Of a stretch of DNA of 43,198 nucleotides, positions 17,395 to 42,802 are shown one piece after another. The notes under the pieces are model-generated. The model saw only the letters and a list, made by a program, of their open reading frames with translations. It searched no databases and had not been told where the DNA came from. Source of the DNA: Betaproteobacteria bacterium (lineage in GTDB: Bacteria; Pseudomonadota; Gammaproteobacteria; Burkholderiales; Rhodocyclaceae); the NCBI GenBank assembly GCA_028065725.1, contig JAPTVL010000272.1:1-43198 (forward strand). The letters run 5' to 3'. How positions within the stretch are numbered: position 1 is the stretch's first letter; each line of letters begins with the position of its first letter. The position numbers and the translations under genes were made by a program.

Positions 17395-17396
17395 TC

Positions 17397-17627
17397 ATGG
17401 GCCAGGTCATCGATTTCCGGACCGCCCGGGAATTCCGCCCGGCGCCCGTGCCCGAGGCGCGCTGCCGCTGCGGCACCTGCGGCGCCGAGCTCTGGCACAT
17501 TACGCAGTCCGGTGAAGTCTGCTGCGCCGACTGCGATACGGTCTGTCCCTACCGTTTGCAGGAAAGCAGCGCAGGGCAGGGCAAGCGGCAGGCAAATTGT
17601 ACCCTGGCCGACAGCGACATCGATTAA
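17397..17627 (+). CDS. Small zinc-ribbon-like protein, unknown function
   Basis: 76 aa, starting 2 nt after the bzdV stop. The middle carries a cysteine set that looks like a zinc ribbon: CRCGTCG (Cys 23, 25, 28) and CCADCDTVC (Cys 42, 43, 46, 50). The flanks are polar and of low complexity. No signal peptide or membrane helix is seen. The tight spacing makes it part of the bzd operon. It could be a small metal-binding accessory or regulatory protein. A second small zinc-ribbon protein ends the 2-aminobenzoate-like operon at 42799-42993. The overlap-like spacing and cysteine pattern make a real gene likely, but there is no functional assignment. Confidence 0.7.
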   Translation: MGQVIDFRTAREFRPAPVPEARCRCGTCGAELWHITQSGEVCCADCDTVCPYRLQESSAGQGKRQANCTLADSDID

Positions 17628-17661
17628 CCACACCAATCCGGAGTTCAAGAGGAAAACATTC

Positions 17662-18435
17662 ATGGCAGATTTCAAGTTCATCTCCTACGAGGATCAGGGC
17701 GAGGTCATCCGTCTGGCCATCAACCGGCCGCCCTACAACGTGCTCGATATCGCCACCATGGAGGAGATGAATACCGCGCTCGACCTGGCGATGGAAAACA
17801 CCACAGCCAAGGTCCTGGTGATCACCGGCAACGGCGACAAGACTTTTTCTTCCGGCGTCGATGTGGTCGATCACACGCCGGACAAGGTGGTGAAGATGAT
17901 CGAGGTGTTCCACGGCATCCTCAAGCGTTTGATGATGGTGCCGATCCCCACCGTCGCTGCGGTCAATGGCCCGGCGCTGGGCGGCGGCTGCGAACTGGCG
18001 ATCGCCTGCGACATGGTGGTGGCATCGGAGACAGCCAAGCTCGGCCAGCCGGAGATCAAGCTCGGCGTGTTCCCGCCGATCGCCGCGATCCTCTTGCCGC
18101 GCCAGATTCCAATGACCAAGGTGATGGAACTGCTGCTCGGCGGCGGCATCGTCGATGCCAGGGAGGCGCATCGTCTCGGATTGGTGAACACCGTGTTCCC
18201 GAAGGAAAGCTTCGCGGCCGATACGGCGAAGTTCCTCGAACAATTCACCTCGCTGTCGCGCGTGGCATTGATCCACACCAAGAAGGCAGTCAAGGAGGCG
18301 GCGACGCGGCCCTTCTACGAGGCGCTGTTCCACATCGAACAGCATTATCTCAAGGATCTGATGGCCACCGAAGATGCCAAGGAGGGCTTGAACTCCTTCA
18401 TCGAGAAGCGCAAGCCGGTCTGGAAAAACAAATAA
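17662..18435 (+). CDS. bzdY: Cyclohexa-1,5-diene-1-carbonyl-CoA hydratase
   Basis: Crotonase-family hydratase (Dch/BzdY type) that adds water to the dienoyl-CoA made by benzoyl-CoA reductase, giving 6-hydroxycyclohex-1-ene-1-carbonyl-CoA. It has 257 aa from ATG 17662 with AAGAGGAAAAC upstream; the frame is open from 17512 but that part overlaps the preceding zinc-ribbon gene. Oxyanion-hole motifs are TFSSGVDVVDHT and NGPALGGGCELAIACD, with GQPEIKLGVFPP following as in the family. It is followed by the dehydrogenase bzdX after 20 nt, so three successive pathway steps (Y, X, W) are encoded together. Confidence 0.93.
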   Translation: MADFKFISYEDQGEVIRLAINRPPYNVLDIATMEEMNTALDLAMENTTAKVLVITGNGDKTFSSGVDVVDHTPDKVVKMIEVFHGILKRLMMVPIPTVAAVNGPALGGGCELAIACDMVVASETAKLGQPEIKLGVFPPIAAILLPRQIPMTKVMELLLGGGIVDAREAHRLGLVNTVFPKESFAADTAKFLEQFTSLSRVALIHTKKAVKEAATRPFYEALFHIEQHYLKDLMATEDAKEGLNSFIEKRKPVWKNK

Positions 18436-18455
18436 ATCGACACGAGGGCAAGATA

Positions 18456-19523
18456 ATGATTCCAAGCACCATCAAAACATGGCAGATGACCGTACCGGGG
18501 ACGCTGACCAAGACCGAAATCCCGGTGCCGCAACTGCAGCCGGGCGAAGTGCTGGTCGAGGTCAAGGGCTGCGGCGTCTGCCACACCGACCTGTCCTACT
18601 TCTACATGGGGGTGCGCACCGAACAGCCGCCGCCGCTGTCGCTGGGACACGAGATTTCGGGCGTGGTGGTTGCCGGTGAGGCGAGTTATATCGGCAAGGA
18701 AGTCATCATTCCCGCCGTGCTCCCCTGCAACAAGTGCGAGCTGTGCAAGACCGGCCGCGGCAACCGCTGCCTGGCGCAGAAGATGCCGGGCAATTCGATG
18801 GGCATCTACGGCGGTTTCTCCAGCCATATTCCGGTGCCGGCGGCGGATCTCTGCGTCGTCGGCAAGCGCGGCAAGGTGCCGCTGGAACACCTCTCGGTGA
18901 TCGCCGACGCGGTGACCACGCCCTATCAGGCGGGGCGGCGTGCGCGGCTGGCGGCCGGCGATCGCGTCATCGTCATCGGCGCGGCCGGCGGTGTCGGCAG
19001 CTTCATGACCCAGGTGGCCAAGGGCATGGGCGCCGGCACGGTGATCGGCATCGACATCAACGAGGAAAAGCTGGAGTTCATGAAGGGCTACGGCGCCGAC
19101 TTCACGATCAATCCCAAGGGCAAGTCGCCCAAGGAAGTGAAGGAGATCTTCAAGGCCTATTGCAAGGAAAAGGGCATTCCCTCGAACTACGGCTGGAAGA
19201 TCTTCGAGGTCACCGGCACCAAGCCGGGCCAGGAACTGGCGCTGTCGCTGCTGTCCTTCACCGGTTTGCTGATGGTGGTCGGCTACGGTACCGACGAGAC
19301 CTCCTACATGCTGTCCAAGCTGATGGCCTTCGATGCCGAGCTGATCGGAACCTGGGGCTGTCCGCCCGAGTTCTATCCGCAGGTGCTGGAAATGTGCCTC
19401 GACGGGCGTATCAATCTCGGCCCCTTCGTTGAGACGCGGCCGATGAGCCAGATCGAGCAGGTGTTCGATGAGGCGCATCACGGCAAGTTGAAGCGCCGCG
19501 TAATCCTGACCCCCGATTTCTGA
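18456..19523 (+). CDS. bzdX: 6-hydroxycyclohex-1-ene-1-carbonyl-CoA dehydrogenase
   Basis: Zinc-type alcohol dehydrogenase (Had/BzdX) that oxidises the 6-hydroxy group with NAD+ to 6-oxocyclohex-1-ene-1-carbonyl-CoA. It has 355 aa. Catalytic-zinc motifs are GCGVCHTDLS and LGHEISG. The structural-zinc loop is PCNKCELCKTGRGNRC, with four cysteines. The nucleotide-binding loop is IGAAGGVGSFM. The C-terminal half includes EVTGTKPGQELALSLL. It lies between bzdY and bzdW in the known Azoarcus order. ATG 18456 is preceded by ACGAGGGCAAGATA. Confidence 0.93.
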   Translation: MIPSTIKTWQMTVPGTLTKTEIPVPQLQPGEVLVEVKGCGVCHTDLSYFYMGVRTEQPPPLSLGHEISGVVVAGEASYIGKEVIIPAVLPCNKCELCKTGRGNRCLAQKMPGNSMGIYGGFSSHIPVPAADLCVVGKRGKVPLEHLSVIADAVTTPYQAGRRARLAAGDRVIVIGAAGGVGSFMTQVAKGMGAGTVIGIDINEEKLEFMKGYGADFTINPKGKSPKEVKEIFKAYCKEKGIPSNYGWKIFEVTGTKPGQELALSLLSFTGLLMVVGYGTDETSYMLSKLMAFDAELIGTWGCPPEFYPQVLEMCLDGRINLGPFVETRPMSQIEQVFDEAHHGKLKRRVILTPDF

Positions 19524-19576
19524 AGCAGAATTTCACATTCACGAACCACTCACCGAATTCAAAGAGGAGAACTACC

Positions 19577-20719
19577 ATGGCATTGGAATGGCTACGCAGG
19601 GAAAATGAGCTCAAGGATCACCAGCTGATCGACAACAGCCACTTCGGCGGCGCATCTGCCAGTGATGCGCCAACGGTGATCTATGAAGAGCGTCCGGTGC
19701 TGGACGACAAGGGCGCTGCCGTCGCGGGCCTGTATTCGGCCTGGATCTGGCTCAACAACCCGACCCAGTACAACTCCTATACCACCGACATGGTGAAGGG
19801 CGTCATCGCCGGCATGCAGCGCGCATCGAGCGACCGCAAGATCGTCGCCGTGGTGTTCACCGCGGTCGGCGACAAGGCCTTCTGTACCGGCGGCAACACC
19901 GCCGAGTATGCCTCCTACTACTCCAAGCGCCCCAACGAGTACGGCGAGTACATGGACCTGTTCAACGCCATGGTCGACGGTATCCTCAACTGCAAGAAGC
20001 CGGTGATCAGCCGCGTCAATGGCATGCGCGTCGCCGGCGGCCAGGAAATCGGCATGGCCACCGACATCACGGTGACCTCCGACCTCGCCGTGTTCGGCCA
20101 GGCCGGTCCCAAGCACGGCTCGGCGCCGGTCGGCGGCTCGACCGACTTCCTGCCCTGGTTCCTCTCGATGGAAGATGCGATGTACAACTGCATCTCCTGC
20201 GAAACTTGGAGCGCCTACAAGATGAAGTCCAAGGGCCTCGTCACCAAGGCCGTGCCGGTGCTGAAGAAGGACGGCCAGTGGGTGAGGAATCCGCTGGTGC
20301 GCACCGACACCTTCGTCGATGACGGCGAGATCGTCTATGGCGAACCGGTCGCCGCCGACAAGGTCGCCGCCGCCAAGGCGCTGATCGCCGAGTGCAAGAC
20401 CGACTTCGAACTGCTCGACGCCGAAGTGAATCGCCTGGTGTGGAAGTTCGCCAACCTGTTCCCCAACTGCCTGATCAATTCGATCGACGGCATTCGCGGC
20501 AAGAAGAAGTTCTTCTGGGACCAGATGAAGCTGCCGAACCGCCATTGGCTCGCGGCCAACATGAACCACGAAGCCTGGCTCGGTTTCAATGCCTTCGACG
20601 CCAAGAAGCCGACCGGCAAGGACGTCATCGACTTCGTCAAGTTCCGCCAGTTGGTGGCCGAAGGCGCGCTGTTCGACGACAAGTTCGCCGAGCAGGTAAT
20701 GGCCAAGCCGAAGGGCTGA
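19577..20719 (+). CDS. bzdW: 6-oxocyclohex-1-ene-1-carbonyl-CoA hydrolase (ring opening)
   Basis: Crotonase-family hydrolase (Oah/BzdW) that hydrates and hydrolytically opens the ring to 3-hydroxypimelyl-CoA. It has 380 aa, the expected length and longer than normal enoyl-CoA hydratases. Motifs are GDKAFCTGGNTAEYASYYS, RVNGMRVAGGQEIGMATD and FGQAGPKHGSAPVGGSTDF, all typical of this subfamily. ATG 19577 follows AAAGAGGAGAACTACC. A 147-nt gap containing an inverted-repeat element follows before bzdZ, so this may be the end of the main bzd transcript. Confidence 0.94.
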   Translation: MALEWLRRENELKDHQLIDNSHFGGASASDAPTVIYEERPVLDDKGAAVAGLYSAWIWLNNPTQYNSYTTDMVKGVIAGMQRASSDRKIVAVVFTAVGDKAFCTGGNTAEYASYYSKRPNEYGEYMDLFNAMVDGILNCKKPVISRVNGMRVAGGQEIGMATDITVTSDLAVFGQAGPKHGSAPVGGSTDFLPWFLSMEDAMYNCISCETWSAYKMKSKGLVTKAVPVLKKDGQWVRNPLVRTDTFVDDGEIVYGEPVAADKVAAAKALIAECKTDFELLDAEVNRLVWKFANLFPNCLINSIDGIRGKKKFFWDQMKLPNRHWLAANMNHEAWLGFNAFDAKKPTGKDVIDFVKFRQLVAEGALFDDKFAEQVMAKPKG

Positions 20720-31636: not shown

Positions 31637-32440
31637 GTGCACAGCGGTTTCGTCAAGGTTTGCGGCCACAGTCTCGAGTACCAGATCTTTCCGGCGCACC
31701 AGATCAACCGTCCGACCCTGGTGCTGCTGCACGAAGGCCTTGGCTCGGTCGCCATGTGGCGCGACTTTCCGGCCCGGCTCGCGGCCGCCACCGGCTGCCG
31801 GACGCTGGTCTATTCGCGCTATGGCTACGGTCAGTCCGACGTTCTCGAAGCTTCCTTCGCTACCGACTTCATGCACCGTGAAGCGCGCGAGGCGCTGCCC
31901 GAACTGCTCGCCGCGCTGGATATCGACAAGCCCGTGCTGGTCGGCCATTCCGACGGCGCGTCGATTGCCCTGCTGCATGCCGGCGACGGGCGCTTCGAGG
32001 TCGCCGGGCTGGTGGTCATGGCGCCGCACTGCTTCGTCGAGGATATTTCCATTCGCAGCATCGAAGCCGCCAAAGTCGCCTTCGAGACCACCGACCTCCC
32101 GGCCAAACTCGGCAAGTATCACCGCGACGTGCGGCGCACGTTCTATGGCTGGAACGACATCTGGCTGGACCCGGAATTTCGCTCCTGGAACATCGAGGAC
32201 TGCCTGCCGCAGATCCTTTGTCCCGTGCTGGCGATTCAGGGCGAGGACGACGAGTACGGCACCATGGCGCAGATCGAGGCGATCGCCGCTAAGGCCACGG
32301 CGGCGCCCGACGTCGAACTGCTCAAGCTGGCCGATTGCCGCCATTCCGCGCACAAGGACCAGACCGCTGCCGTGATCGAGGCCATCAATCGCTTTACCGA
32401 AAGCCTCGACTTCGCCGTGCCGCCGGCGCCGACTTTCTGA
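31637..32440 (+). CDS. Alpha/beta hydrolase, possibly an acyl-CoA thioesterase or ring-fission hydrolase
   Basis: 267 aa, with GTG start 4 nt after the LivF-like gene. The alpha/beta-hydrolase triad is visible: nucleophile Ser105 in LVGHSDGASIALL, an acid in IQGEDDEYG and His in ADCRHSAHKDQ. The oxyanion region is LLHEGLGSVAMWRDFP. No signal peptide is seen. Its substrate is not determined by the sequence. In this operon it may cleave a CoA thioester or a ring-opening product. The final residues VPPAPTF are encoded by one copy of a dispersed repeat that recurs in several intergenic sites, so the C-terminus may have been altered by it. Confidence 0.85.
   Translation: MHSGFVKVCGHSLEYQIFPAHQINRPTLVLLHEGLGSVAMWRDFPARLAAATGCRTLVYSRYGYGQSDVLEASFATDFMHREAREALPELLAALDIDKPVLVGHSDGASIALLHAGDGRFEVAGLVVMAPHCFVEDISIRSIEAAKVAFETTDLPAKLGKYHRDVRRTFYGWNDIWLDPEFRSWNIEDCLPQILCPVLAIQGEDDEYGTMAQIEAIAAKATAAPDVELLKLADCRHSAHKDQTAAVIEAINRFTESLDFAVPPAPTF
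32414..32440 (+). repeat. Dispersed repeat copy c (encodes the end of the alpha/beta hydrolase)
   Basis: GCCGTGCCGCCGGCGCCGAC followed by TTTCTGA. It supplies the last codons and stop of the hydrolase gene. The last 15 bp are identical to those of copy d at 33180-33194, so the two flank the Phd-ParE module. Confidence 0.55.
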
Positions 32441-32523: not shown

Positions 32524-32847
32524 ATGGAACAGCTGCTTGCCACCCGCTCGGTCAGTATCACTGAATTGAAACGCAGCCCCAGCGCCGTCCTCGAACAAGC
32601 GGGCGCCGAGCCCGTGGCCGTGCTAAACCACAATCGGCCCGCGGCCTACCTGCTTTCTCCCGCAGTCTATGAGTCGATGCTCGAACGCCTGAATGCCGAT
32701 CTGCGCAAGGAGATACAGGAAGGCATCGACAGCGGTCCGGCGATAGCCGCCGCTGAACTGTTCGCCGAACTGAATGAACGCTACGCGGAACCGAAGCGTT
32801 CGACTTCGAAGCAAGCCGTCAAGACCCCCGGTAAACGCGCGGCCTGA
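32524..32847 (+). CDS. Antitoxin, Phd/YefM-like (StbD type)
   Basis: 107 aa. The N-terminal half is a Phd/YefM fold: SVSITELKRSPSAVLEQAG, then EPVAVLNHNRPAAYLLSP, typical of these antitoxins, which bind operator DNA as dimers. The C-terminal part (NERYAEPKRSTSKQAVKTPG) is charged and probably disordered, the part that wraps the toxin. The next gene is a ParE/RelE toxin whose ATG overlaps the stop (TGATG). A perfect inverted repeat lies upstream. The module maintains itself; it has no clear link to aromatic degradation. Confidence 0.88.
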   Translation: MEQLLATRSVSITELKRSPSAVLEQAGAEPVAVLNHNRPAAYLLSPAVYESMLERLNADLRKEIQEGIDSGPAIAAAELFAELNERYAEPKRSTSKQAVKTPGKRAA

Positions 32848-33155
32848 TGGCGGCCGTAACTTTTTCGCCAAAGTCCCGGCAAGACCTGCTCGATATCGGC
32901 GACTACATCGCCAAGGACAGTCGAGCCAATGCCCGGCGCTTTGTTGCCAGGCTGATCGATCAGTGCAAGCGAATTGGCCGGGCACCGTTCGGCTATGCCG
33001 GCAGGGACGATTTGGCGCCGGGTCTGCGGATGGCAGCGCTGGATCGCTATGTGATTTTCTTTCGCGTGATCGACAGCGTGGTTCGCATCGAACGCGTGTT
33101 GCACGGCGCCCGCAACCTGCCTGTGGTGCTTGACAAGCCCGCTGGTACCACCTGA
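32847..33155 (+). CDS. Toxin, ParE/RelE superfamily
   Basis: 102 aa, overlapping the antitoxin stop by one base. The sequence MAAVTFSPKSRQDLLDIGDYI, a central RFVARLIDQCKRIGRAPFGYAG and the C-terminal DRYVIFFRVIDSVVRIERVLHGARNLP follow the ParE/RelE fold. ParE members inhibit DNA gyrase and RelE members cut mRNA; the C-terminal RVLHGARN is ParE-like, but gyrase inhibition is not proven. Together with the Phd-like antitoxin it forms a type II module. Confidence 0.87.
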   Translation: MAAVTFSPKSRQDLLDIGDYIAKDSRANARRFVARLIDQCKRIGRAPFGYAGRDDLAPGLRMAALDRYVIFFRVIDSVVRIERVLHGARNLPVVLDKPAGTT

Positions 33156-33167
33156 GGCGGAAAAGCC

Positions 33168-33194
33168 GCCGTACTGCCAGCGCCGACTTTCTGA
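33168..33194 (+). repeat. Dispersed repeat copy d
   Basis: GCCGTACTGCCAGCGCCGAC followed by TTTCTGA. It lies between the ParE-like toxin stop and the end of the HigA-like antitoxin gene, just beyond the HigA-like stop. Confidence 0.55.
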
Positions 33195-33200
33195 GGCTTG

Positions 33201-33542
33201 TCACGCCGCCGCTTTGTTGCGGGGTTCAGGCCTCGATGTGCTGTTCGGTGCAAGGTGGTCGATGACCACCGGCGGCCGGTTGGGAAATTGCGCCACAAGC
33301 TCCAGCTTGCCTCCCATCGCCTCGACATAGCGGCGTAGCGTGGAGAGCAGCATGTCGCTGCGCTTTTCCAGTCGCGAAATGGTGTCCTGGCCAACCCCCA
33401 GTGACGCGGCAAGGTCTTGCTGGGTTTGTGCCACGGCTTGGCGCAAGTCTTTCAGCGTCGCCAGTTCGCCAGCGCGCGCCTCGATGGCTGCGCGGCGCTT
33501 GGCCGGCAGTCGCTCCATCAGGTGATCAAGTTTTTTTGCCAT
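33201..33542 (-). CDS. Antitoxin, XRE-family (HigA-like)
   Basis: 113 aa. It has a helix-turn-helix of the XRE class: VAQTQQDLAASLGVGQDTISRLEKRSDMLLSTLRRYVEAMGG is split by recognition helix VGQDTISRLEK around residues 49-59. The N-terminus is basic and a short proline-rich tail follows. It overlaps the end of the toxin gene by 17 nt (33526-33542), in toxin-first order, as is typical of HigBA. It probably autoregulates the promoter upstream of the toxin. Confidence 0.87.
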   Translation of the reverse strand: MAKKLDHLMERLPAKRRAAIEARAGELATLKDLRQAVAQTQQDLAASLGVGQDTISRLEKRSDMLLSTLRRYVEAMGGKLELVAQFPNRPPVVIDHLAPNSTSRPEPRNKAAA

Positions 33543-33912
33543 GCCGATGCTCCTTGTTCGTTGCGGTCAGTGTGACCAGATGCGCGTCAAATCGTGCGTC
33601 CGCCAGGGCAATCAACCGTTTGTAAAAGCGCCGTTGATCCGCGCCACCCTTGTCACCGCCTACCAGCAGAATCGCCCGTCGCGCCGGATCAAAGGCAAAC
33701 GCTACGCGCCATACCTCGCCCGCCCAGCCAACGCGCAATTCCTTCATGTTGGCGTGCTTTGATCCCTTCAGCGTATCCACCGTCGGTCGTCCCAAGCCGG
33801 GGCCGAAATCCCGCAGCAACAGAGCATGGGCAAGCAGTTCGTCTTGTAGGGGTTCGGCCAGGGCCGCGAATTCGGCGGCGAAGTCGTCGTGAAGGAGGAC
33901 GGTCCAACTCAT
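33526..33912 (-). CDS. Toxin, RelE/HigB superfamily
   Basis: 128 aa. The C-terminal half WRVAFAFDPARRAILLVGGDKGGADQRRFYKRLIALAD matches the HigB/RelE-like phage-derived toxin fold: GxxxVWR, FDPARRAILLVGGDK and the KRLI region. Toxins of this fold usually act as ribosome-dependent mRNA nucleases. It comes before its antitoxin gene, as in higBA. The start codon lies directly downstream of a promoter-like pair, so the message could be leaderless. It faces away from the first toxin module. Confidence 0.87.
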   Translation of the reverse strand: MSWTVLLHDDFAAEFAALAEPLQDELLAHALLLRDFGPGLGRPTVDTLKGSKHANMKELRVGWAGEVWRVAFAFDPARRAILLVGGDKGGADQRRFYKRLIALADARFDAHLVTLTATNKEHRHGKKT

Positions 33913-34012: not shown

Positions 34013-34915
34013 CTAGCGCGAGAAGATGTCCATGAACTGCTGGCGCAGCCAGCGGTTGCCGCGGTCGTCGTGAAAGCGCTCCTGCCAGCACTGCTTGATG
34101 TCAAAAGCCGGGATCGCGATCGGCAGCGGCAGCAGCTTGACCTCGTTGTGCTGCGAGAGCTGGCTGCCGACACTGTGCGGCACGATGGCGATCATGTCGG
34201 TGGCGGCGACGATGCTGGCCAGCACCAGGAAGTTCTGCATGCGCAGCGCGATGCGTTGCTCCAGGCCATGCTCGATCAGCGTGCGCTCGATGATGCCGTG
34301 GCCCCAGCCGCCCGGCGTGACGATGGCATGTGCGGCGGCGGCAAACTGCTTTGCCGTGATGCGCTCGCCGATCGACGGATGGTCCTGGCGCACCACGCAG
34401 ACATAGCGGTCGCGAAACAGGCGCTGCATGTAGAACCCGGCACCCAGGTCGGGCAGGTTGCCGATGGCGAGATCGACCTCGCCGTTGCGCAAGGCGACCT
34501 CCGCAGACTCGGTCGGCATCGGCAGGGTACGCAGGTGCACGCCGGGCGCGACCCGGTTCAGGCGCTCGAGCAGGCGCGGCAGGAAGTAGGCTTCGCCGAG
34601 GTCGGTGAGGTAGATGGCGAAGCTGCGCTGCGAAGTCGCGGGGTCGAATTCCTGGCTGGCGCCCAGCGAAACGCGGATGCCGGTCAGGGCCTGGCGGACC
34701 GGATCGGCAATGCCCTGGGCATAGGGCGTCGGCGCCATGGCGTTGCCGAGGCGGACGAAAAGACGGTCGCCGGTGGCCTTGCGCATGCGCGCCAGGGCGT
34801 TGCTCACGGCCGGCTGCGACAGATCCAGCCGATCGGCGGCGCGGCTGATCGAGCCTTCGGCGAGTACCGCCTCGAAGACCGGCAGCAGGTTCAGATCGAA
34901 TTTTGAGATATTCAT
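34013..34915 (-). CDS. LysR-family transcriptional regulator
   Basis: 300 aa. The N-terminal winged helix-turn-helix (residues ~5-65) reads LLPVFEAVLAEGSISRAADRLDLSQPAVSNALARMRK. The C-terminal two-lobe effector domain starts near residue 90 (QRSFAIYLTDLGEAYFLPRLL). It is transcribed divergently from the aromatic ligase at 35042, a usual arrangement for LysR regulators that control the neighbouring operon. The effector is probably a benzoate-type compound or its CoA ester. No gene lies in the 126-bp gap to the ligase. It is followed by the HigBA-like module. Confidence 0.92.
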   Translation of the reverse strand: MNISKFDLNLLPVFEAVLAEGSISRAADRLDLSQPAVSNALARMRKATGDRLFVRLGNAMAPTPYAQGIADPVRQALTGIRVSLGASQEFDPATSQRSFAIYLTDLGEAYFLPRLLERLNRVAPGVHLRTLPMPTESAEVALRNGEVDLAIGNLPDLGAGFYMQRLFRDRYVCVVRQDHPSIGERITAKQFAAAAHAIVTPGGWGHGIIERTLIEHGLEQRIALRMQNFLVLASIVAATDMIAIVPHSVGSQLSQHNEVKLLPLPIAIPAFDIKQCWQERFHDDRGNRWLRQQFMDIFSR

Positions 34916-35041: not shown

Positions 35042-36700
35042 ATGCTCGAAGGCTGCGTGCCCTGGCCCGCCGACGTGGCGGCGCGCTACCGCCAGCGGGG
35101 CTGGTGGGAAGGCATCACGATTCCGCAACTGCTGGAGCGCAGCGCCGCGCGCCATCCGCAGAAGACGGCGCTGGTCTGCGGCGAACTGCGGATCAGCTAT
35201 GGCGATCTGGTGACGGGCTATCGGCGCCTGGCCTGCCGCTTTCTCGAAGCGGGGATCAAGACCCTCGATCGCGTCGTGCTGCAACTGTCCAACGGCCCGG
35301 AATTCGTCCTCGCCTACTTTGCCCTGACGCGCATCGGCGCGATACCGGTGATGGCGCTGCGCGCCCATCGCCATAGCGAAGTCCGCCACTTCCTCAAGGC
35401 CTCGGGTGCCGCGGCCTACGTGATTCCCGATCGCATCGGCAACTTTGATTACCGCGACATGGCGCGCGAGGTCGGTTCCGACGCGCCTGCCTTGCGCCAC
35501 GTGTTCGTTGCCGGCGAGCCCGGCCCCGGCCAGATCGACCTGCGCGCGATGATTGCCGCGCCGCTGGCAGACGCCGACGTTGTTGCGACACTGGCCGGGC
35601 ACGATCCCGATCCCGGCGAAGTGACGACCATGCTGCTGTCCGGCGGTACCACCTCGCTGTCGAAACTGATCCCGCGCACCCACGAGGATTACGTGCTGAA
35701 CGCGCGGCTCTGCGGCCGTGCCGGTGGCTTCGACGAGGCCACGGTGTTCATGGCCATCCTGCCGCTGGGACACAACTACAACCTGGCCTCGCCCGGCATG
35801 CTCGGCACCTTCTACTACGGCGGCACCGTGGTGCTGGCCGCATCCGGCGACGCCGCCGAGGTGTTCTCGCTGGTGCAGCGCGAGCGAGTGACGGCGATCG
35901 CGGCCGTGGTGCCGCTGATTTCCAACTGGCTCAATTCGCCGGTGCCGGATAGCTACGATGTCTCCTCGCTCAAGGTGATCCAGAACGGCGGTGCGCGTCT
36001 TGCCCCGGAACTGCGCGGCCGCCTGCGCGAGCGTTTCGGCTGCCTGCCGCAGGAAATCTACGGCACGGCAGAGGGCCTGATCAACATGGTGCCGCTGGAT
36101 GCGCCGGACGACATGCTGCTCACCAGTTCCGGCATTCCGGTGTGCGCGGACGACGAGATCAAGGTGCTCGACGACGACGGCAACGAAGTGCCTGACGGCG
36201 AGCCGGGCGAACTCGTCACGCGCGGGCCCTACACCATCCAGGGCTATTACCGGGCGCCGGAAAAGCAGGCCGAGGCCTTCACGCCCGACGGCTTCTACCG
36301 CATGGGCGACATCGTGAGGAAGCAGGGCCGCCACGTGTTCACCGAGGGGCGGCGCAAGGACCTGATCAACCGCGGCGGCGAGAAAATCAGCTGCGAAGAG
36401 GTGGAGAACCTGATCTTTGGCCATCCCAAGGTCAAGGCCGTGACCCTGGTGGCGATGCCCGATCCGGTGTTCGGCGAGAAGGCCTGCGCCTTCGTCATCC
36501 CGAAGCAAGGCGAAACCCTGGAGTTCGCCGAGCTGATCGCCTTCCTGCGCCAGCAGAAGATCGCCAGTTTCAAATTGCCGGAACGCCTCGAAGTGGTCGA
36601 GGAATTTCCCCTGAGTCCGGTGGGCAAGATCCTCAAGCGCCAGCTGCGCGAAATGATCGCGGCCCGGATAGAAGGCGAAACGGCGGACGCCAGGACATGA
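35042..36700 (+). CDS. Aryl-adenylating ligase, EntE/DhbE-type (salicylate- or dihydroxybenzoate-AMP-ligase-like)
   Basis: ANL enzyme of 552 aa. The N-terminus (EGCVPWPADVAARYRQRGWW) and LSGGTTSLSKLIPRTHEDY follow the EntE/DhbE family, which adenylates 2,3-dihydroxybenzoate or salicylate. EIYGTAEGLIN is the A5 region and GRRKDLINRGGEKISCEEVE the hinge. The C-terminal lysine is in SPVGKILKRQLRE. The SdgA/SdgB pair of Streptomyces salicylate degradation is a close functional parallel: one adenylates, one makes the CoA ester. Here a second ligase is 3 kb downstream. The gene is first in the operon divergent from LysR and overlaps the monooxygenase start (ATGA). The actual substrate is not shown by the sequence. 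Confidence 0.85.
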   Translation: MLEGCVPWPADVAARYRQRGWWEGITIPQLLERSAARHPQKTALVCGELRISYGDLVTGYRRLACRFLEAGIKTLDRVVLQLSNGPEFVLAYFALTRIGAIPVMALRAHRHSEVRHFLKASGAAAYVIPDRIGNFDYRDMAREVGSDAPALRHVFVAGEPGPGQIDLRAMIAAPLADADVVATLAGHDPDPGEVTTMLLSGGTTSLSKLIPRTHEDYVLNARLCGRAGGFDEATVFMAILPLGHNYNLASPGMLGTFYYGGTVVLAASGDAAEVFSLVQRERVTAIAAVVPLISNWLNSPVPDSYDVSSLKVIQNGGARLAPELRGRLRERFGCLPQEIYGTAEGLINMVPLDAPDDMLLTSSGIPVCADDEIKVLDDDGNEVPDGEPGELVTRGPYTIQGYYRAPEKQAEAFTPDGFYRMGDIVRKQGRHVFTEGRRKDLINRGGEKISCEEVENLIFGHPKVKAVTLVAMPDPVFGEKACAFVIPKQGETLEFAELIAFLRQQKIASFKLPERLEVVEEFPLSPVGKILKRQLREMIAARIEGETADART

Positions 36701-37848
36701 AGATCCGCATCATCGGCGGCGGACCGGCCGGCCTCTACTTCGCCTCGCTGATGCAGCGCGAGGATCCGGCGCACGACATCGTGGTCTACGAGCGTGGGCC
36801 GCGCAACGCGACCTGGGGTTTCGGCGTGGTCTTCTCCGACCGCGCGCTGGAGTTCCTGCGCGCCGACGACGAGGCCATGTACCGGCTGCTGACGCCGTTG
36901 ATGGAGACCTGGCCCAACCTGACCATCGTCCATAACGACACGCCCGTTCCCATCGCCGGCAACGGCTTCGCCGCGATCGGGCGGCTGGAACTGTTGAGCC
37001 AGTTGTACGCCCATGCCGAATCGCTGGGCGTGAAGATCGAATTCGACAGCGAGGTGGTCGCGCTGGATCATCCCGCGCTGGCGGGCGCCGACCTCATCGT
37101 CGCCGCCAACGGCGCCTTCTCCTGGGTACGCAACGAGCACGCGGACAGGTTCGGCACCGAGACCGACCTGCGCCACAACCGCTTCATCTGGTACGGCACC
37201 AGCAAGGCCTTCGACAGTCTGTCGCTGACCTTCCGCGAGACCGAACACGGCGTGTTCTGCGCCCATCATTACCGCTACAGCCCGGGCATGAGCACCTTCC
37301 TGGTCGAGGTGACGGATGCGACCTGGCAGCGGGCAGGGTTCGCCGACATGGGCGAGGACGACACGATCCGTCATTGCGAACAGGTCTTCGCCAGGGACCT
37401 CGACGGCGCGCCGATACTCTCCAACAAGTCCTACTGGCGCCAGTTTCCGGCGGTCACCAACCGGCAGTGGAGCTTCGACAATGTGGTGCTGATGGGCGAC
37501 GCCCTGCGCACGGCGCATTTCTCGATCGGCTCCGGCACGCGCCTGGCCATGGAAGATGCCATCGCCTTGTGGAAGGCCCTGCGCGATGCGGGCAGCCTGC
37601 CGGAGGCGTTGGCGCTGTATCAGCAGCGCCGCCTGCCGCCGATGCAGAAGATCCTCGATGCGGCCAATGCCAGCATCGGCTGGTACGAGCGCATGGATGA
37701 ATTGATCCGGCTGTCGCCGCTGGACTTCGCCTACAGCTACATGACGCGTACCGGCCGCGTCGACCACGATGAAGTGACGCGCCGCGATCCGAAACTGGCG
37801 GCCGCGTGGGAGCACGATCACCCCGAAATCTTCGGTTCGTCGTATTGA
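36697..37848 (+). CDS. FAD-dependent aryl-CoA monooxygenase (N-terminal-half equivalent of 2-aminobenzoyl-CoA monooxygenase/reductase; salicylyl-CoA 5-hydroxylase-like)
   Basis: Class A flavin monooxygenase of 383 aa. The FAD motif is IIGGGPAGLYFASLM at residues 4-18, with VVYERGPRNATWGFGVVFSD next. The second FAD motif is VVLMGDALRTAHFSIGSGTR near 265-284. The C-terminal MTRTGRVDHDEVTRRDP is typical of the salicylyl-CoA 5-hydroxylase and 2-aminobenzoyl-CoA monooxygenase/reductase group. In ACMR this domain is fused to an old-yellow-enzyme domain; here it ends after 383 aa with a stop. It should hydroxylate an ortho-substituted benzoyl-CoA at C5. It overlaps the ligase stop by 4 nt. An 85-bp gap with its own promoter-like elements separates it from the reductase. 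Confidence 0.87.
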   Translation: MKIRIIGGGPAGLYFASLMQREDPAHDIVVYERGPRNATWGFGVVFSDRALEFLRADDEAMYRLLTPLMETWPNLTIVHNDTPVPIAGNGFAAIGRLELLSQLYAHAESLGVKIEFDSEVVALDHPALAGADLIVAANGAFSWVRNEHADRFGTETDLRHNRFIWYGTSKAFDSLSLTFRETEHGVFCAHHYRYSPGMSTFLVEVTDATWQRAGFADMGEDDTIRHCEQVFARDLDGAPILSNKSYWRQFPAVTNRQWSFDNVVLMGDALRTAHFSIGSGTRLAMEDAIALWKALRDAGSLPEALALYQQRRLPPMQKILDAANASIGWYERMDELIRLSPLDFAYSYMTRTGRVDHDEVTRRDPKLAAAWEHDHPEIFGSSY

Positions 37849-37878
37849 CGCGCCGACCCTTTGCGCTTAATGTATACA
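37845..37878 (+). promoter_or_regulatory. Possible internal promoter and TGTATACA palindrome upstream of the reductase gene
   Basis: TTGACG (37845-37850), 17 bp, TAATGT (37868-37873), overlapping the perfect palindrome TGTATACA (37871-37878). The gap in an otherwise tightly packed operon suggests an extra promoter or operator for the reductase and downstream genes. The -10 match is weak. Confidence 0.3.
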
Positions 37879-37933
37879 GTATCCAAAGATAAGCAAACGC
37901 CCGCCTAAGGCCGGGCCATCAGGAGGAATCATA

Positions 37934-39901
37934 GTGACACGACCGGGCGAAGCGAAGCTCAATCATCTGTTCCAGCCGGGCAGGATCGGCAAGTTCGAAG
38001 TCAAGAACCGGATCAAGTACGGGGCGTGCTGCGTCTCGAACTACAACGGCCGCGACGGCACCATCACCCCGCGCGAACTGGCGCGGGTCCGCGTCATCGC
38101 CGGCACCGGCTGCGGCCTGATCACCAACCAGGGCGCCTATCCCGACCCGCTGGGGGAGGGCAAGTCCTACTTCCGCCAGGTCGCGATCCACGACGACAAG
38201 TTCCTGCCGCAGTTCGAGAAGATTGCCCAGTACATCCATGACGCCGGCGCCATGGCCATGCAGCAGATCCTGCACGCCGGGCGCTACGGCGGCATCGACC
38301 TCGGCTACTGCGTCCAGCCCTCGGTGGTGCCGCAGACCCTGCCGCACTTCCGTCCGCCGCGGGAGATGACCAAGGATCAGATCAAGCTTACCGTGCAGCA
38401 GCACGCCGACGCCGCCAAGCGCGCGATCCGCGCCGGCTTCGACGGCACCGAAGTCACCAGCTTCATGGGCTACCTGCTGGCCAACTTCAACTCCCGCTTC
38501 ACCAATCAGCGCACCGACGAATACGGCGGCTCGGTGGAGAATCGCGGCCGCTTCATGCGCGAACTGATCGACGCCATCAAACAGGCCACGCCCGACAATC
38601 CGCTGTCGATCCGCTTGAACGGCGCCGAACTGATGGACCGCTGGGGCGGCAACACCCAGGACGAATCCTTCGAACTGATGCAGCAGGCCGTCGATTGCGG
38701 CGTGGACATGATCTCGGTCACGGTGGGCTGGCAGGAAGCGCCGGAGTCGTCCTTCGGCCGTGACGTCGAACCGGGCTACTGGAACTTCCTCTCCGAGAAA
38801 GCCAAGAAGATGTTCCCCAACACCCTGGTCGCCTTCGGCAATCGCCTGCCCGACCCGGCCATGGCCAACGCCTGCGTCAAGGACAACATCTTCGACTACT
38901 GGGAAGTCTGCCGCCCGCTCTTGGCCGACCCGGAAATGATCCACAAGGCCGCCGAAGACCGCATGGAAGAAGTCCGCCCCTGCATCGGCTCCTTGAACTG
39001 CCTGTCGCGCCTGTTCCGCGACCTGCCCTACACCTGCACCATGAACCCGATGCTGGGCCACGAAGTCGAGCCCGAGTACCACGTCACCGAAGCCACCGAG
39101 AAGAAGCGCATCATGGTCATCGGCGCCGGCCCGGCCGGCATGGAAGCAGCCATCACTGCCCGCAAGCGCGGCCACGCCGTGACCGTGTTCGACAAGGCCG
39201 ACCGCATCGGCGGCGCGCTCGGTGCCTATGCCGCCAACGACCTGGCGCGTCCGGCCGACCTGCAAAGCGTGATCGACTACTACGGCGTGATGGCCAAGAA
39301 GCTCGGCGTCGAAGTGCGTTTGAACACCGAGGCCAATGCCAAGTTCATGCGCAGCGTCTTGCACGAATACGACGTCTGCATCGTCGCCGCGGGTGCCCGC
39401 ACCGACATGGCGGTGTTCCAGTACCTCGAAGGCGCCGAACTGCTGGTCGATGCGCTGGACGTGGCGCACGGCAAGGTCAAGACCGGCAAGCGCGTGGTGA
39501 TGATCGGCGGCGGCATGATCGGCCTGACCATTTCCGAATTCCTCGCCAAGGCCGGTCACGAAGTCACCGTGGTCGAGAACGAAAAGCGCATCGGCGGCGA
39601 CATCATGCCGACCTTCAAGTGGCGCCACACCGCCTGGGTGGACGAACTTGGCATCCAGACCGTCTGCTCGGCGCAACTGGTCAAGGTGAGCAAGGAAGGG
39701 GCAACGGTGAAGACGCCCAAGGGCGAGCAGTTCATCCCCTGCGACAGCGTGATCGTCTCCAGTCCGCGCAAGGCCAACCATGACCTGTTCCACGAGTTCC
39801 AGTGGATGGTGGACGAATTGCACGGCGGCGGTGACGCCACGGTGCCGCGCGGCCTCGATGCGGCGATCCAGGAAGGCTACAAGCTCGGCGTGCGCATCTG
39901 A
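37934..39901 (+). CDS. Old-yellow-enzyme/TMADH-family reductase (2,4-dienoyl-CoA-reductase-like) with altered Fe-S motif
   Basis: 655 aa, three domains as in trimethylamine dehydrogenase and 2,4-dienoyl-CoA reductase. Residues ~8-340 form the FMN barrel (ILHAGRYGG, NSRFTNQRTDEYGGSVENR). Then comes the Fe-S motif, and from about residue 390 FAD/NAD(P) domains (IMVIGAGPAGMEAA; VVMIGGGMIGLTISEFLA). The Fe-S motif reads RPCIGSLNCLSR...YTC: the family pattern has a cysteine where Ser is found, leaving three cysteines. The start is GTG 37934, 7 nt after AGGAGG. In this operon it could reduce the 5-hydroxylated aryl-CoA, the job of the C-terminal half of ACMR, but it is a longer protein type than that half. 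Confidence 0.88.
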   Translation: MTRPGEAKLNHLFQPGRIGKFEVKNRIKYGACCVSNYNGRDGTITPRELARVRVIAGTGCGLITNQGAYPDPLGEGKSYFRQVAIHDDKFLPQFEKIAQYIHDAGAMAMQQILHAGRYGGIDLGYCVQPSVVPQTLPHFRPPREMTKDQIKLTVQQHADAAKRAIRAGFDGTEVTSFMGYLLANFNSRFTNQRTDEYGGSVENRGRFMRELIDAIKQATPDNPLSIRLNGAELMDRWGGNTQDESFELMQQAVDCGVDMISVTVGWQEAPESSFGRDVEPGYWNFLSEKAKKMFPNTLVAFGNRLPDPAMANACVKDNIFDYWEVCRPLLADPEMIHKAAEDRMEEVRPCIGSLNCLSRLFRDLPYTCTMNPMLGHEVEPEYHVTEATEKKRIMVIGAGPAGMEAAITARKRGHAVTVFDKADRIGGALGAYAANDLARPADLQSVIDYYGVMAKKLGVEVRLNTEANAKFMRSVLHEYDVCIVAAGARTDMAVFQYLEGAELLVDALDVAHGKVKTGKRVVMIGGGMIGLTISEFLAKAGHEVTVVENEKRIGGDIMPTFKWRHTAWVDELGIQTVCSAQLVKVSKEGATVKTPKGEQFIPCDSVIVSSPRKANHDLFHEFQWMVDELHGGGDATVPRGLDAAIQEGYKLGVRI

Positions 39902-39913
39902 CGGGAGGCGGTC

Positions 39914-41554
39914 ATGGCCTACAGCGCCCATGTCGATACCTTTACCCGTGACAACCTTCCGCCAGCCGGGCAGCAACCGGAGTTTCTGTTCGATCTGCCG
40001 GAACTGAAGTTTCCCGAGCGGCTCAACTGTGCCGGGCCGCTGCTCGACGAGCATGTCGCGCAGGGGCGCGGCGACCGCATCTGCATCCAGGCGCCGAATG
40101 TCCGCTGGACCTACGCCGACCTGCAGGAGCGCGCCAACCGCATCGCCAACGTACTGGTGAATGACCTCGGCGTGGTGCCGGGCAACCGCGTGCTGCTGCG
40201 CGCGCCGAACAACCCGATGATGGCCGCCTGCTGGTTTGCGGTCATGAAAGTCGGCGCTGTCGCCACGGCGACCATGCCGCTCCTGCGTGCCAAGGAACTC
40301 AAGCACGTGATCGCCAAGGCGAAGGTGAGTCACGCCTTGTGCGACCTGCGCCTGGCTGAGGAACTCAAGCTCGCCGCCGCCGAATCGCCCGATACATCGA
40401 CGGAACTGAGGCACATCCGCTGGTTCAACGACACTTCCGCCGACGGTCTCGAAGCAGCGATGGCGAAGCAGTCCCCGGAGTTCCGCAACGTCGATACGGC
40501 GCGCGACGACACCTGCATCCTCGCCTTCACCTCCGGCACCACCGGCCAGCCCAAGGCCACGATGCATTTCCACCGCGACGTCATGGCCTCCTGCGTCTGC
40601 TGGCCGCCCCACGTGCTGCGGCCGACGCCGGACGACATCTTCATGGGCACGCCGCCGCTGGCCTTCACCTTCGGCCTCGGCGGCTTGTTGCTGTTCCCCT
40701 TGAGCATCGGCGCCTCGACCGTGCTGCTGGAGCAGGGCGGGCCGCAGGACCTGGTCGATGCGGTGCTGAAATACCGGGCCACGATTCTGTTCACCGCGCC
40801 GACCTCCTACCGCGCCATCGCCGCGATCGCCGGCCCGCTGCGCGGCAGCACGCTGAGGAAATGCGTCTCGGCCGGCGAGGCGCTGCCGGCGGCGACCCGC
40901 GCGCTGTGGAAGGAGGCCACCGGCATCGAGATGATCGACGGCATTGGCGCCACCGAACTCATGCACATCTTCATTTCCGCCGACGAGAAGGAGGCGTTGC
41001 CCGGCGCCACCGGCAAGGTGGTGTCCGGCTACGTCGCCTGCGTCATGGACGACGAGGGCCGACCGGCGCCGCTCGGCCAGGTTGGCAAGCTCGCGGTCAA
41101 GGGCCCGACCGGCTGCCGCTACCTGGCCGACGAGCGCCAGGCCCGCTACGTGATCGATGGCTGGAATTACACCGGCGATGCCTATTCGCTCGATGGCGAT
41201 GGGTATTTTCACTATCACTCGCGCACTGATGACATGATCATTTCGGCCGGCTACAACATCGCCGGGCCCGAGGTCGAGGATGCCCTGCTGCGTCACCCGA
41301 AAGTGGCCGAGTGCGGCGTCATCGGCGTCGCCGACGAGGAACGCGGCCAGGTGGTCAAGGCCATCGTCGTGCTGCGTCCCGGCTTTGATGCTTCGCCCGT
41401 GACGGCGAAGGAACTGCAGGATTACGTCAAGCAGAGCATCGCTCCCTACAAGTACCCGCGTCAGGTCGAGTTCGTCACCAGCCTGCCGCGCACCGAAACC
41501 GGCAAGCTGCAGCGCTTCCGGCTCAGACAATCCGCCCAAGGAGAAACCAAGTGA
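39914..41554 (+). CDS. 2-aminobenzoate-CoA ligase-like enzyme (benzoate-CoA ligase family)
   Basis: ANL ligase of 546 aa. The N-terminus YSAHVDTFTRDNLPPAGQQP and FLFDLPELKFPERLNC follow the 2-aminobenzoate-CoA ligase group of the benzoate ligase family. The P-loop is FTSGTTGQPKATMHFHRD, the A5 motif DGIGATELMHIF, the hinge YHSRTDDMIISAGYNIAGPE and the catalytic lysine Lys531 in TGKLQRFRLR. It should form the aryl-CoA used by the monooxygenase; 2-aminobenzoate or salicylate are the best guesses. ATG 39914 follows GGGAGGCGGTC. The stop overlaps the RidA-like start (GTGA). A second, EntE-type, ligase in the same operon suggests either two substrates or a two-step activation. Confidence 0.88.
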   Translation: MAYSAHVDTFTRDNLPPAGQQPEFLFDLPELKFPERLNCAGPLLDEHVAQGRGDRICIQAPNVRWTYADLQERANRIANVLVNDLGVVPGNRVLLRAPNNPMMAACWFAVMKVGAVATATMPLLRAKELKHVIAKAKVSHALCDLRLAEELKLAAAESPDTSTELRHIRWFNDTSADGLEAAMAKQSPEFRNVDTARDDTCILAFTSGTTGQPKATMHFHRDVMASCVCWPPHVLRPTPDDIFMGTPPLAFTFGLGGLLLFPLSIGASTVLLEQGGPQDLVDAVLKYRATILFTAPTSYRAIAAIAGPLRGSTLRKCVSAGEALPAATRALWKEATGIEMIDGIGATELMHIFISADEKEALPGATGKVVSGYVACVMDDEGRPAPLGQVGKLAVKGPTGCRYLADERQARYVIDGWNYTGDAYSLDGDGYFHYHSRTDDMIISAGYNIAGPEVEDALLRHPKVAECGVIGVADEERGQVVKAIVVLRPGFDASPVTAKELQDYVKQSIAPYKYPRQVEFVTSLPRTETGKLQRFRLRQSAQGETK

Positions 41555-41952
41555 AGGAAAAAACGCTGCTCCCCCCTGGCTGGCCGCTGGCCAAGGGCTA
41601 TGCCCATGGCGTCGCGGCGCGCGGGCAGATGATCTTCGTTGCGGGCCAGGTCGGCTGGGACGAGAAATGCGAATTTCCAGGCGATGACATTGTCACACAA
41701 GCGGAGCAGGCGCTGAAGAACGTCGTCGCCATCCTCGCCGAGGCCGGCGCCAAACCCGAGCACATCGTGCGCATGACCTGGTACCTCGGCAGCAAGGAGG
41801 AGTACTGGGACAAGCAGAAGGAACTCGGCGAGGTCTTCCGCCGCATCATCGGCACCTACGGCGCGGCGATGACCGCGGTGCAGGTCGCCGGCTTCGTCGA
41901 GCATGGCGCTAGGGTCGAGATCGAGGCCACCGCCGTGATCCCGGATGCCTGA
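41551..41952 (+). CDS. RidA/YjgF/Rid-family protein (enamine/imine deaminase-like)
   Basis: 133 aa. The Rid fold is clear: ARGQMIFVAGQVGWDEKCEF, then ITQAEQALKNV-like VTQAEQALKNVVAILAEAG, and a C-terminal TAVQVAGFVEHGARVEIEATA. Rid proteins hydrolyse enamines and imines to ketones plus ammonia; some members lack the catalytic arginine, and here ARVEIEATAVI carries an arginine near the usual site. In 2-aminobenzoyl-CoA degradation the product of the monooxygenase/reductase is an enamine, so hydrolysis by this protein would be logical. GTG start overlaps the ligase stop. Alternative role: general removal of reactive imines. Confidence 0.87.
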   Translation: MKEKTLLPPGWPLAKGYAHGVAARGQMIFVAGQVGWDEKCEFPGDDIVTQAEQALKNVVAILAEAGAKPEHIVRMTWYLGSKEEYWDKQKELGEVFRRIIGTYGAAMTAVQVAGFVEHGARVEIEATAVIPDA

Positions 41953-41954
41953 AC

Positions 41955-42338
41955 TTGGATGAAGCACGCTGGTCGCGCCTGCTGGAACGCCTGCCCGAGG
42001 TCGAGGAAACCGCCGGTGCGCCGCTGGCCGTGGCCTTCATCAACAGCGCAGACTACGCCGCGAAGCGCGGCCAGGCCTGGCTGTGGTGGCCGGGCAGCCG
42101 CGCGCGCGCCACGGGGCCGGTCGCCTTCGACGGCCGCTTTCCGGCGGACTGGGGTCTGCTGCTGGTGATGAACGACATGGCCATTGCGAAAGTCGGCGCT
42201 GACGGCACGGCGTGCATGGCCCACCTGGCGCGCCTGCTCGACATCAAGCCCTTCGTGCTGCAACAGCGCGACGAGCTGGAGGCCGCAGGCATACTTGAAT
42301 TTATCGAAACACTGGAACTGGCGACACCCAAACACTGA
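41955..42338 (+). CDS. Unknown protein, 127 aa, in the aminobenzoate-like operon
   Basis: I do not recognise this protein. It starts with TTG at 41955, 2 nt after the RidA-like stop; no in-frame ATG is near, so the TTG start is the best choice. It is soluble, with no signal peptide or membrane helix. Features are an amphipathic N-terminal helix (DEARWSRLLERLPEVEE), AVAFINSADYAAKRGQAWLW, a central FDGRFPADWGLLLVMNDMA and a C-terminal acidic helix. The stop overlaps the next start by one base. Tight packing in the operon supports a role in the same pathway, perhaps in folding or regulation, but no function is inferred. Confidence 0.7.
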   Translation: MDEARWSRLLERLPEVEETAGAPLAVAFINSADYAAKRGQAWLWWPGSRARATGPVAFDGRFPADWGLLLVMNDMAIAKVGADGTACMAHLARLLDIKPFVLQQRDELEAAGILEFIETLELATPKH

Positions 42339-42802
42339 TGAACGCAGTCATAGAACAAGGCTTTGGCAACATCGCCCCCTGGCAGGCCATGCTGGACCGT
42401 CACCAAGAGCTGTTCCTCGACATGGTGCCGGGCTCGCGCATCGGCTTCGTCTCGCGCGAAGCCTCGGGCATTCTTCCCGGCAAGCATCTCGACGGCGTCA
42501 AGCTGGCGACGGACGTGCCGATGCTGGCCTGGCAACTGGAGAACGGCAGCATGTCGGCGCGCATCGAGCGCTTCGCGGGCATGGCCGCGACCAAGGTAGA
42601 CCTATTGCTGGTGGCCGACGAAGAGGCCATGGCGACGATGCTGGGCGAACTGGAAGGCGACACCCTGGCGGTGATCAAGCGCCTGATCCGGCGCGGCCGC
42701 ATGATGTTCTTCGTGTTCAAGAACAAGGCCCAGTTGCAGGACGCCGGCTACGAGGATTTTCTCGACTCGCTGGGCCTGGCCTTCCTCGGCGCCTGCCGAT
42801 GA
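42338..42802 (+). CDS. Unknown protein, 154 aa, in the aminobenzoate-like operon
   Basis: I do not recognise this protein. It starts at ATG 42338, overlapping the preceding stop by one base, and its own stop overlaps the next start (ATGA). It is soluble and alpha/beta in appearance: SRIGFVSREASGILPGKHLDG, then LAWQLENGSMSARIERFAGM, VDLLLVADEEAMATMLGELEG and RRGRMMFFVFKNKAQLQD. No catalytic motif or cysteine cluster is seen, apart from one cysteine near the end. It may form a complex with its small neighbours. Coupled translation indicates a conserved unit with the preceding and following genes. Confidence 0.72.
   Translation: MNAVIEQGFGNIAPWQAMLDRHQELFLDMVPGSRIGFVSREASGILPGKHLDGVKLATDVPMLAWQLENGSMSARIERFAGMAATKVDLLLVADEEAMATMLGELEGDTLAVIKRLIRRGRMMFFVFKNKAQLQDAGYEDFLDSLGLAFLGACR

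Follow-up and report, generated by a model that had tools for sequence, protein, structure and literature searches.

A possible oxic salicylate module beside a possible anoxic 2-aminobenzoate module in a Rhodocyclaceae genome

Type III aryl-CoA reductases are described, in an excerpt of PMC13365417, as known only for the degradation of polycyclic aromatic hydrocarbons (PAHs). Characterised members share 33–57% identity (excerpts of PMC13101529 and PMC13365417); AprB, AprC and 2-naphthoyl-CoA reductase (NCR) are about 33–34% identical with four cysteines conserved, and AprC carries out two successive two-electron steps and takes NADH at 40% (excerpt of PMC13101529). In NCR, Y197 is acidified by H284 and Y82, an arrangement described as unique among old yellow enzymes (OYEs), and the release of fluoride from 6-fluoro-2-naphthoyl-CoA by NCR provides a precedent for the reductive loss of a leaving group (excerpt of PMC6502838). 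The genes for anaerobic degradation of 2-aminobenzoate, on which Thauera aromatica grows anaerobically, are called barely known in the quoted sections of a review (PMC8388817). The present study concerns a 43,198-nucleotide stretch of a Rhodocyclaceae genome (contig JAPTVL010000272.1, assembly GCA_028065725.1), hereafter the window, in which two CoA ligases, a stand-alone flavin monooxygenase (MO), an OYE flavoprotein (RED) and a Rid-family protein are encoded within one gene run. A sequence-only reading had taken MO and RED to be the separated halves of 2-aminobenzoyl-CoA monooxygenase/reductase (ACMR). The locus more likely comprises two neighbouring catabolic modules than one split enzyme, and on balance we lean modestly towards an oxic salicylate module 1 beside an anoxic 2-aminobenzoate module 2 built around RED.

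RED, its relatives and its gene neighbourhoods

The five genes of the sequence-only reading were confirmed on the + strand, in the places and families it had given. Module 1 consists of an EntE/DhbE-type aryl-CoA ligase, probably for salicylate (35042–36700, 552 aa), and MO, a probable salicylyl-CoA 5-hydroxylase (36697–37848, 383 aa). Module 2 starts 85 bp further on with RED, a three-domain OYE flavoprotein that resembles type III aryl-CoA reductases and is a probable 2-aminobenzoyl-CoA reductase (37934–39901, 655 aa), followed by a 2-aminobenzoate-CoA-ligase-like protein (ABL; 39914–41554, 546 aa) and the Rid-family protein (41551–41952, 133 aa). To these we add two conserved small proteins encoded on the same strand, o127 (41955–42338), which had no match in NCBIfam or Pfam, and o154 (42338–42802), with a weak SCP2-like fold, as well as a conserved GTATAC element in the MO–RED gap. 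The family models matched were EntE/DHB-AMP ligase for the first ligase, the N-terminal half of PRK08255 and VioD for MO, OYE and pyridine-nucleotide oxidoreductase domains for RED, and benzoate-CoA-ligase-like proteins for ABL.

The best PDB match of RED by sequence was NCR (389 bits, versus 227 for 2,4-dienoyl-CoA reductase), which was also its top Foldseek match by E-value (33% identity; RED model with a predicted local distance difference test score of 73). RED has the domain layout of a type III enzyme; Y180 aligns with the proton donor Y197 of NCR and Y79 with the second donor Y82, and both tyrosines were invariant in 41 RED sequences. RED may thus far be likened to a type III aryl-CoA reductase in its mode of action, though two other residue positions, discussed below, depart from that family.

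In a midpoint-rooted maximum-likelihood tree of 65 RED rows (60 different), two clades were resolved: RED-S with six rows (support 100/100) and RED-A with 59, the window among them. Four RED-S rows have EntE and had genes nearby (L054, L057, L081 and L082; L and G numbers are our labels for loci and genomes), L083 stands at the end of a bzd cluster, and L106 is truncated. Of 395 genomes sampled from the family to which G003 belongs, 59 hold RED at a cut-off of E 1e-150 or better; of 369 sampled from the class, one does, namely the centre genome itself. Some of the genomes searched had first come to light through MO loci. Homologues also occur in Ramlibacter and Burkholderiales, and in T. aromatica and Aromatoleum aromaticum EbN1 (P0037). 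At a threshold of E 1e-100, oah was present in 56 of the 59 RED genomes versus 23 of the 336 others (Fisher p 2e-45, kinship uncorrected).

Sixty flanked RED loci were fetched and annotated with 21 query proteins; with the window and L123 added, 62 loci were scored, of which 43 extend at least 4 kb to either side of RED. In this 4-kb neighbourhood, the 43 carried genes for Rid (33), o127 (31), o154 (21), ABL (15), EntE (14), had (13), oah (11), MO (11) and dch (9); every one had at least one of oah, had, Rid and ABL, and 32 had RED without MO. The arrangements included RED–Rid–o127 in Aromatoleum/Thauera-like loci (G116 included), dch–had–oah–RED closing clusters that contain bcr/bzdV genes, which share a stretch with RED in 12 of the 60 fetched loci, contiguous dch–had–oah–RED–ABL–Rid in L086 and L088, contiguous RED–Rid–o154–ACMR in L056 and L059, and had–RED–o154–oah–had–Rid–o127 with divergent LysR and EntE genes in L054 and L082. 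In three Thauera-like loci (L051, 11464–15390; L055; L064), RED lies downstream of an AraC-type regulator gene and of possibly phenylglyoxylate-dehydrogenase-like genes whose products have Fe-S/TPP-enzyme and pyridine-nucleotide reductase domains.

In G288 and G206, an EntE-type ligase gene without MO adjoins those for RED, Had and Oah, and no Dch or Bcr genes occur in the stretch read around them; no other arrangement hints as strongly that the products of RED can join the pathway at the Had/Oah stage, and the cluster is a candidate anaerobic salicylate route. Some kilobases from this RED-S operon (L054, L082) stands a Rieske-oxygenase-type gene cluster (L134, 1–10400; L135), which also encodes homologues of gentisate dioxygenase and FAH, an ABC transporter and, judged by eye, a GST-like protein.

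The closest solved relative of ABL was the anthranilate-CoA ligase 4wv3 (301 bits, and 247 for the benzoate-CoA ligase 2v7b), as befits a 2-aminobenzoate-CoA ligase, and ABL fell below the cut-off of the benzoate-CoA ligase model TIGR02262 (347 vs 375.25). In L128, a 63% identical homologue of ABL lies beside fused ACMR and Rid genes. The sequence-only reading had made Rid the hydrolase of the ring enamine. That proposal stands in a modified form: Rid is linked to RED and lies near fused ACMR in all six Sulfuritalea-type ACMR loci fetched (L116–L121), but is not linked to MO, and it has Met at the place of the Arg of solved Rid proteins and so lacks the canonical residue of RidA imine deaminases. 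The Met recurs in all 11 printed rows (45 aligned), and the protein scores 61.7 bits against TIGR00004 (cut-off 106.25). The canonical residue, Arg105 in the Escherichia coli protein, binds a carboxylate; its loss would suit a CoA thioester substrate without proving one.

Ahead of RED, a TTGAC box that overlaps the MO stop codon and the conserved element ATGTATACAGTATCCA occupy 37845–37885 (+), the window 13-mer ATGTATACAGTAT lying at 37870–37882. The pattern TGTATACA was found upstream of RED in 34 of the 58 loci with readable upstream DNA (7 of 8 in L084), about 29–103 bp before the RED start taken, whether the preceding gene was MO, gentisate dioxygenase, oah, another gene or none recognised. 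A search of 17 whole genomes for the exact 13-mer ATGTATACAGTAT showed that 12 carry it at RED, 11 of these nowhere else and the twelfth (G134) with one further copy before a GntR gene; in G288 the single copy is not at RED, another four genomes lack it, and a reversed control pattern had no match in any of the 17. RED thus appears to possess its own regulatory start, which may be a promoter. A GntR-FCD regulator gene follows both the additional G134 copy and 13 other sites at which the 12-mer TGTATACAGTAT occurs. Such GntR-type genes with TGTATACAGTAT, often just downstream of RED, were seen in L049, L063, L066, L068, L069, L071, L072, L073, L076, L085, L088, L094, L105 and L149.

The ligase and monooxygenase of module 1

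Module 1 is divergent from a LysR-type regulator gene (34013–34915, − strand; NCBIfam/Pfam LysR match), which stays beside EntE–MO in L109, L110 and L112, where RED is absent. An MO scan of genome contigs gave 18 loci, all from metagenome-assembled genomes (MAGs; Sulfuritalea, Rhodocyclales, Rhodocyclaceae and beta-proteobacteria), and many of the relatives are incomplete MAGs. Ten loci have the full order of divergent LysR, EntE, MO, RED, ABL, Rid, o127 and o154, and the other eight end at contig borders; the order conserved in ten complete loci indicates that the arrangement is not due to chance. In nine of the ten, RED directly follows MO; L011 has two extra genes in between, as does L013, whose contig ends after RED. 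In 30 of 31 MO rows, among which four loci are listed twice (L001/L127, L009/L126, L012/L124 and L014/L125), EntE and MO are no more than 400 bp apart, the exception being the RW1 plasmid (L129). EntE–MO occurs without an adjoining RED in L109–L114, four of the six coming from genomes in which the family search found no RED (G048, G054, G022 and G361).

The best PDB match of the EntE-type ligase was the salicylate-AMP ligase 5wm2 (516 bits). Directly 3′ of MO in L011, L013 and L014 are genes for an FAH-family hydrolase and a gentisate 1,2-dioxygenase-like protein (best model of the L011 protein TIGR02272, 257 bits, below the cut-off of 442), which precede RED where the contig extends that far (L011 and L013). 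In L001/L127, homologues of both lie 5–6 kb from MO on the opposite strand, and no gentisate genes were seen beside MO in the window itself. A plasmid of Rhizorhabdus wittichii RW1 carries a 68% identical MO 3′ of a gene annotated as gentisate 1,2-dioxygenase, and an Agrobacterium plasmid carries a 48% identical homologue annotated as CehH, salicylyl-CoA hydroxylase, encoded between CehI and CehG, with FAH, maleylacetoacetate isomerase and cupin genes following. Among 30 genomes searched, 19 of the 23 that bear MO have a gentisate dioxygenase homologue, the match in G022 being just 38% identical, and G002, G004, G013 and G014 have none. MO is thus found in the setting of a salicylyl-CoA 5-hydroxylase, namely as a stand-alone flavin monooxygenase with a CoA ligase and gentisate genes. 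By homology and context it is probably such an enzyme, and module 1 fits ordinary aerobic salicylate degradation via salicylyl-CoA and gentisate. An alpha/beta hydrolase gene adjoins the liv transporter in the window (31637–32440); since EntE, MO, liv genes and a similar hydrolase (by eye) run on one strand in L110, this hydrolase could be the missing gentisyl-CoA thioesterase.

Proposed scheme, alternatives and context

From the observed gene content, order and linkage, homology, conserved residues and upstream element, we infer substrates, electron donor, products and regulation as follows. Under oxic conditions, the EntE-type ligase would convert salicylate to salicylyl-CoA, MO would hydroxylate this at C5 to gentisyl-CoA, and gentisate dioxygenase and an FAH-type hydrolase would cleave gentisate, their genes lying elsewhere or, in some relatives, in the gap ahead of RED. 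Under anoxic conditions, ABL would convert 2-aminobenzoate to 2-aminobenzoyl-CoA, low-potential electrons would reach the FMN of RED via FAD and perhaps an Fe-S centre, and RED would transfer hydride to the ring. The reduced ring could lose ammonia to give benzoyl-CoA, or an imine/enamine could be hydrolysed by Rid to 6-oxocyclohex-1-ene-1-carbonyl-CoA, the Oah substrate, which would bypass the ATP-dependent benzoyl-CoA reductase; the RED product would then enter the bzd-type benzoyl-CoA pathway. The formulae balance, in that 2-aminobenzoate + 2 H − NH3 equals benzoate, and both 2-aminobenzoate + 2 H + H2O − NH3 and salicylate + 2 H equal 6-oxocyclohex-1-ene-1-carboxylate, so that one hydride-transferring enzyme could give benzoyl-CoA or, via an imine, the Oah substrate. 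Members of the RED-S sister clade, with their EntE-type ligase, Had and Oah, may act on salicylyl-CoA, in which case addition of 2 H would give the Oah substrate directly. The scheme retains as plausible what the sequence-only reading had proposed on ortho-substituted benzoates as likely substrates, on CoA-ester chemistry and on two separate ligases, for a hydroxy acid and an amino acid respectively. A wider proposal, which we put forward tentatively and with more doubt than confidence, is that RED founds an ATP-independent reductase branch for single-ring ortho-amino and ortho-hydroxy benzoyl-CoA, in which hydride transfer and tautomerisation (with hydrolysis by Rid for the amine) would yield 6-oxocyclohex-1-ene-1-carbonyl-CoA directly for the ring hydrolase Oah, whereby denitrifiers would bypass ATP-dependent benzoyl-CoA reductase for anthranilate and salicylate.

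Several observations weigh against the oxic salicylate and anoxic 2-aminobenzoate assignment. RED has Gln (Q267) at the place of His284, a hydrogen-bond donor in NCR, with GWQE in 65 of 65 sequences, and three of the four cysteines that ligate the [4Fe-4S] cluster (C350, C356 and C368 align with NCR), the second being missing in all 65 (60 CIGSLNC, 5 CVGSLNC); the missing Cys and the Gln set RED apart from canonical type III enzymes. NADH may serve RED as donor, since the second GxGxxG motif appears intact on inspection by eye. In Azoarcus evansii the product from 2-aminobenzoyl-CoA in anaerobic degradation is benzoyl-CoA (excerpt of PMC4539516), which would make Rid and the Oah shortcut unnecessary; as the RED product, the Rid and Had/Oah links favour the Oah substrate and the literature benzoyl-CoA. 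Rid also occurs in L054/L082, clusters that presumably serve salicylate and are not expected to involve an amine, and the best model for the Rieske oxygenase of L134, near L054, is anthranilate dioxygenase AndAc (367 bits, cut-off 750). The pocket of the EntE-type ligase has the Ser of DhbE where CahJ and PchD align Cys, so that salicylate is its likely but not certain substrate. No element precedes RED in 24 of the 58 readable loci, EbN1 included. The genome counts were uncorrected for kinship, and three of the 56 oah matches were only 52–53% identical. Furthermore, 13 fully flanked loci combine RED with had or oah, and in ten of these neither ABL nor Rid lies within 4 kb, so that a general role of RED in the benzoyl-CoA pathway is possible.

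RED might instead reduce enones or dienoyl-CoA esters among the ring-reduced intermediates of the benzoyl-CoA pathway, for instance 6-oxocyclohex-1-ene-1-carbonyl-CoA, its link to 2-aminobenzoate being secondary. OYE enzymes commonly reduce such enones, and RED follows dch–had–oah in many clusters without ligase or Rid; however, Oah already consumes 6-oxocyclohex-1-ene-1-carbonyl-CoA, and RED–Rid without pathway genes, RED–ABL–Rid and the RED–ACMR linkage would be left unexplained, which makes this role rather unlikely.

A split ACMR, in which MO and RED would perform two half-reactions on separate proteins and Rid would hydrolyse the product, appears quite improbable. It would account for the adjacency of MO and RED in the window and in most complete relatives, and MO is 40% identical to the N-terminal half of ACMR and RED 29% to the OYE half. 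However, the likeness of RED is confined to the OYE domain, with NCR as the nearest PDB chain, each of the two genes occurs without the other, RED has its own upstream element, gentisate-type genes follow MO in L011, L013 and L014 and separate it from RED in the first two, and fused ACMR lies 1.3–2.5 kb from RED in L056, L059 and L079. All 15 sampled genomes with a stand-alone MO (at least 82% identity) also hold an ACMR-like open frame of 773–901 aa. The ACMR-like protein of G003 (767 aa) scores 1281 bits against PRK08255 (cut-off 1078), and its gene is followed by SDR-, enoyl-CoA-hydratase- and acyl-CoA-dehydrogenase-like genes (by eye) and Rid (L116). Where a complete ACMR copy is present, two separate halves of the same reaction are not expected.

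It is similarly hard to believe that RED is aerobic and reduces the cyclohexene product of fused ACMR, since the contiguity in L056 and L059 and a RED–ACMR distance of 35–78 kb in six genomes (contigs 0.6–5.4 Mb; 2–3 kb in G064 and G301) are countered by more than 750 kb in G089 and G026, by the bcr/bzdV genes in RED stretches, and by the SDR/ECH/acyl-CoA-dehydrogenase-like and Rid genes that the ACMR-like gene of G003 has of its own on a contig without RED.

In the window, aerobic box genes (2991–8388, − strand; BoxA, BoxB, BoxC and a BoxR/BzdR-type regulator) adjoin an anaerobic bzd-type benzoyl-CoA pathway (8655–20719, + strand; bzdN, bzdO, ATPase, oxidoreductase and dch-, had- and oah-like genes), so that oxic and anoxic benzoyl-CoA routes lie side by side; MO and RED, if oxic and anoxic respectively, would add an analogous pair for ortho-substituted benzoates. 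Anaerobic 2-aminobenzoyl-CoA reduction is a described activity, for which RED is now a named candidate gene in cultured strains (EbN1 and T. aromatica). If RED dearomatises a single ring without ATP, type III enzymes extend beyond PAHs, and the anaerobic ring-cleavage pathway gains an energy-saving entry. In annotation, adjoining monooxygenase and OYE genes should not be read as a split ACMR. Between the liv/hydrolase genes and the LysR–EntE–MO unit lie two toxin–antitoxin-like pairs (32524–33912), a Phd/YefM antitoxin with a ParE toxin and a helix-turn-helix protein with a Gp49-like protein. In L010 (15153–19147), the genes downstream of o154 encode a further single-domain OYE and an XdhC/CoxI protein, together with two proteins judged by eye to be zinc-ribbon-like and TrpB-like.

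Comparison with known systems

Like NCR and AprB–E, RED is a three-domain OYE flavoprotein of similar size, its identity to NCR falls within the range among characterised members, and the catalytic and second Tyr are kept; RED differs from them in having three rather than four Fe-S cysteines and Gln rather than His284, in its occurrence in Rhodocyclaceae and in the single-ring pathway genes around it. MO belongs to the same monooxygenase group as ACMR (PRK08255), and ligase and Rid genes near ACMR in L128, and Rid in L116–L121, recall module 2. However, ACMR is a single fused protein of about 770 aa, whereas MO and RED are separate open reading frames that score 398 and 129, below the PRK08255 cut-off that the L056 and L116 fusions pass, and the window proteins therefore fall outside ACMR as one polypeptide scoring above that cut-off. 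With the annotated CehG/CehH/CehI system, module 1 has in common a ligase, a stand-alone salicylyl-CoA hydroxylase and gentisate-type genes, though the window ligase is EntE-type and 24% identical to CehG. SdgA–D, to which module 1 can also be likened, reportedly lead from salicylyl-CoA to gentisate. The 2-aminobenzoyl-CoA reductase activity of A. evansii, as described in an excerpt of PMC4539516, shares with RED the expected substrate and the anaerobic setting.

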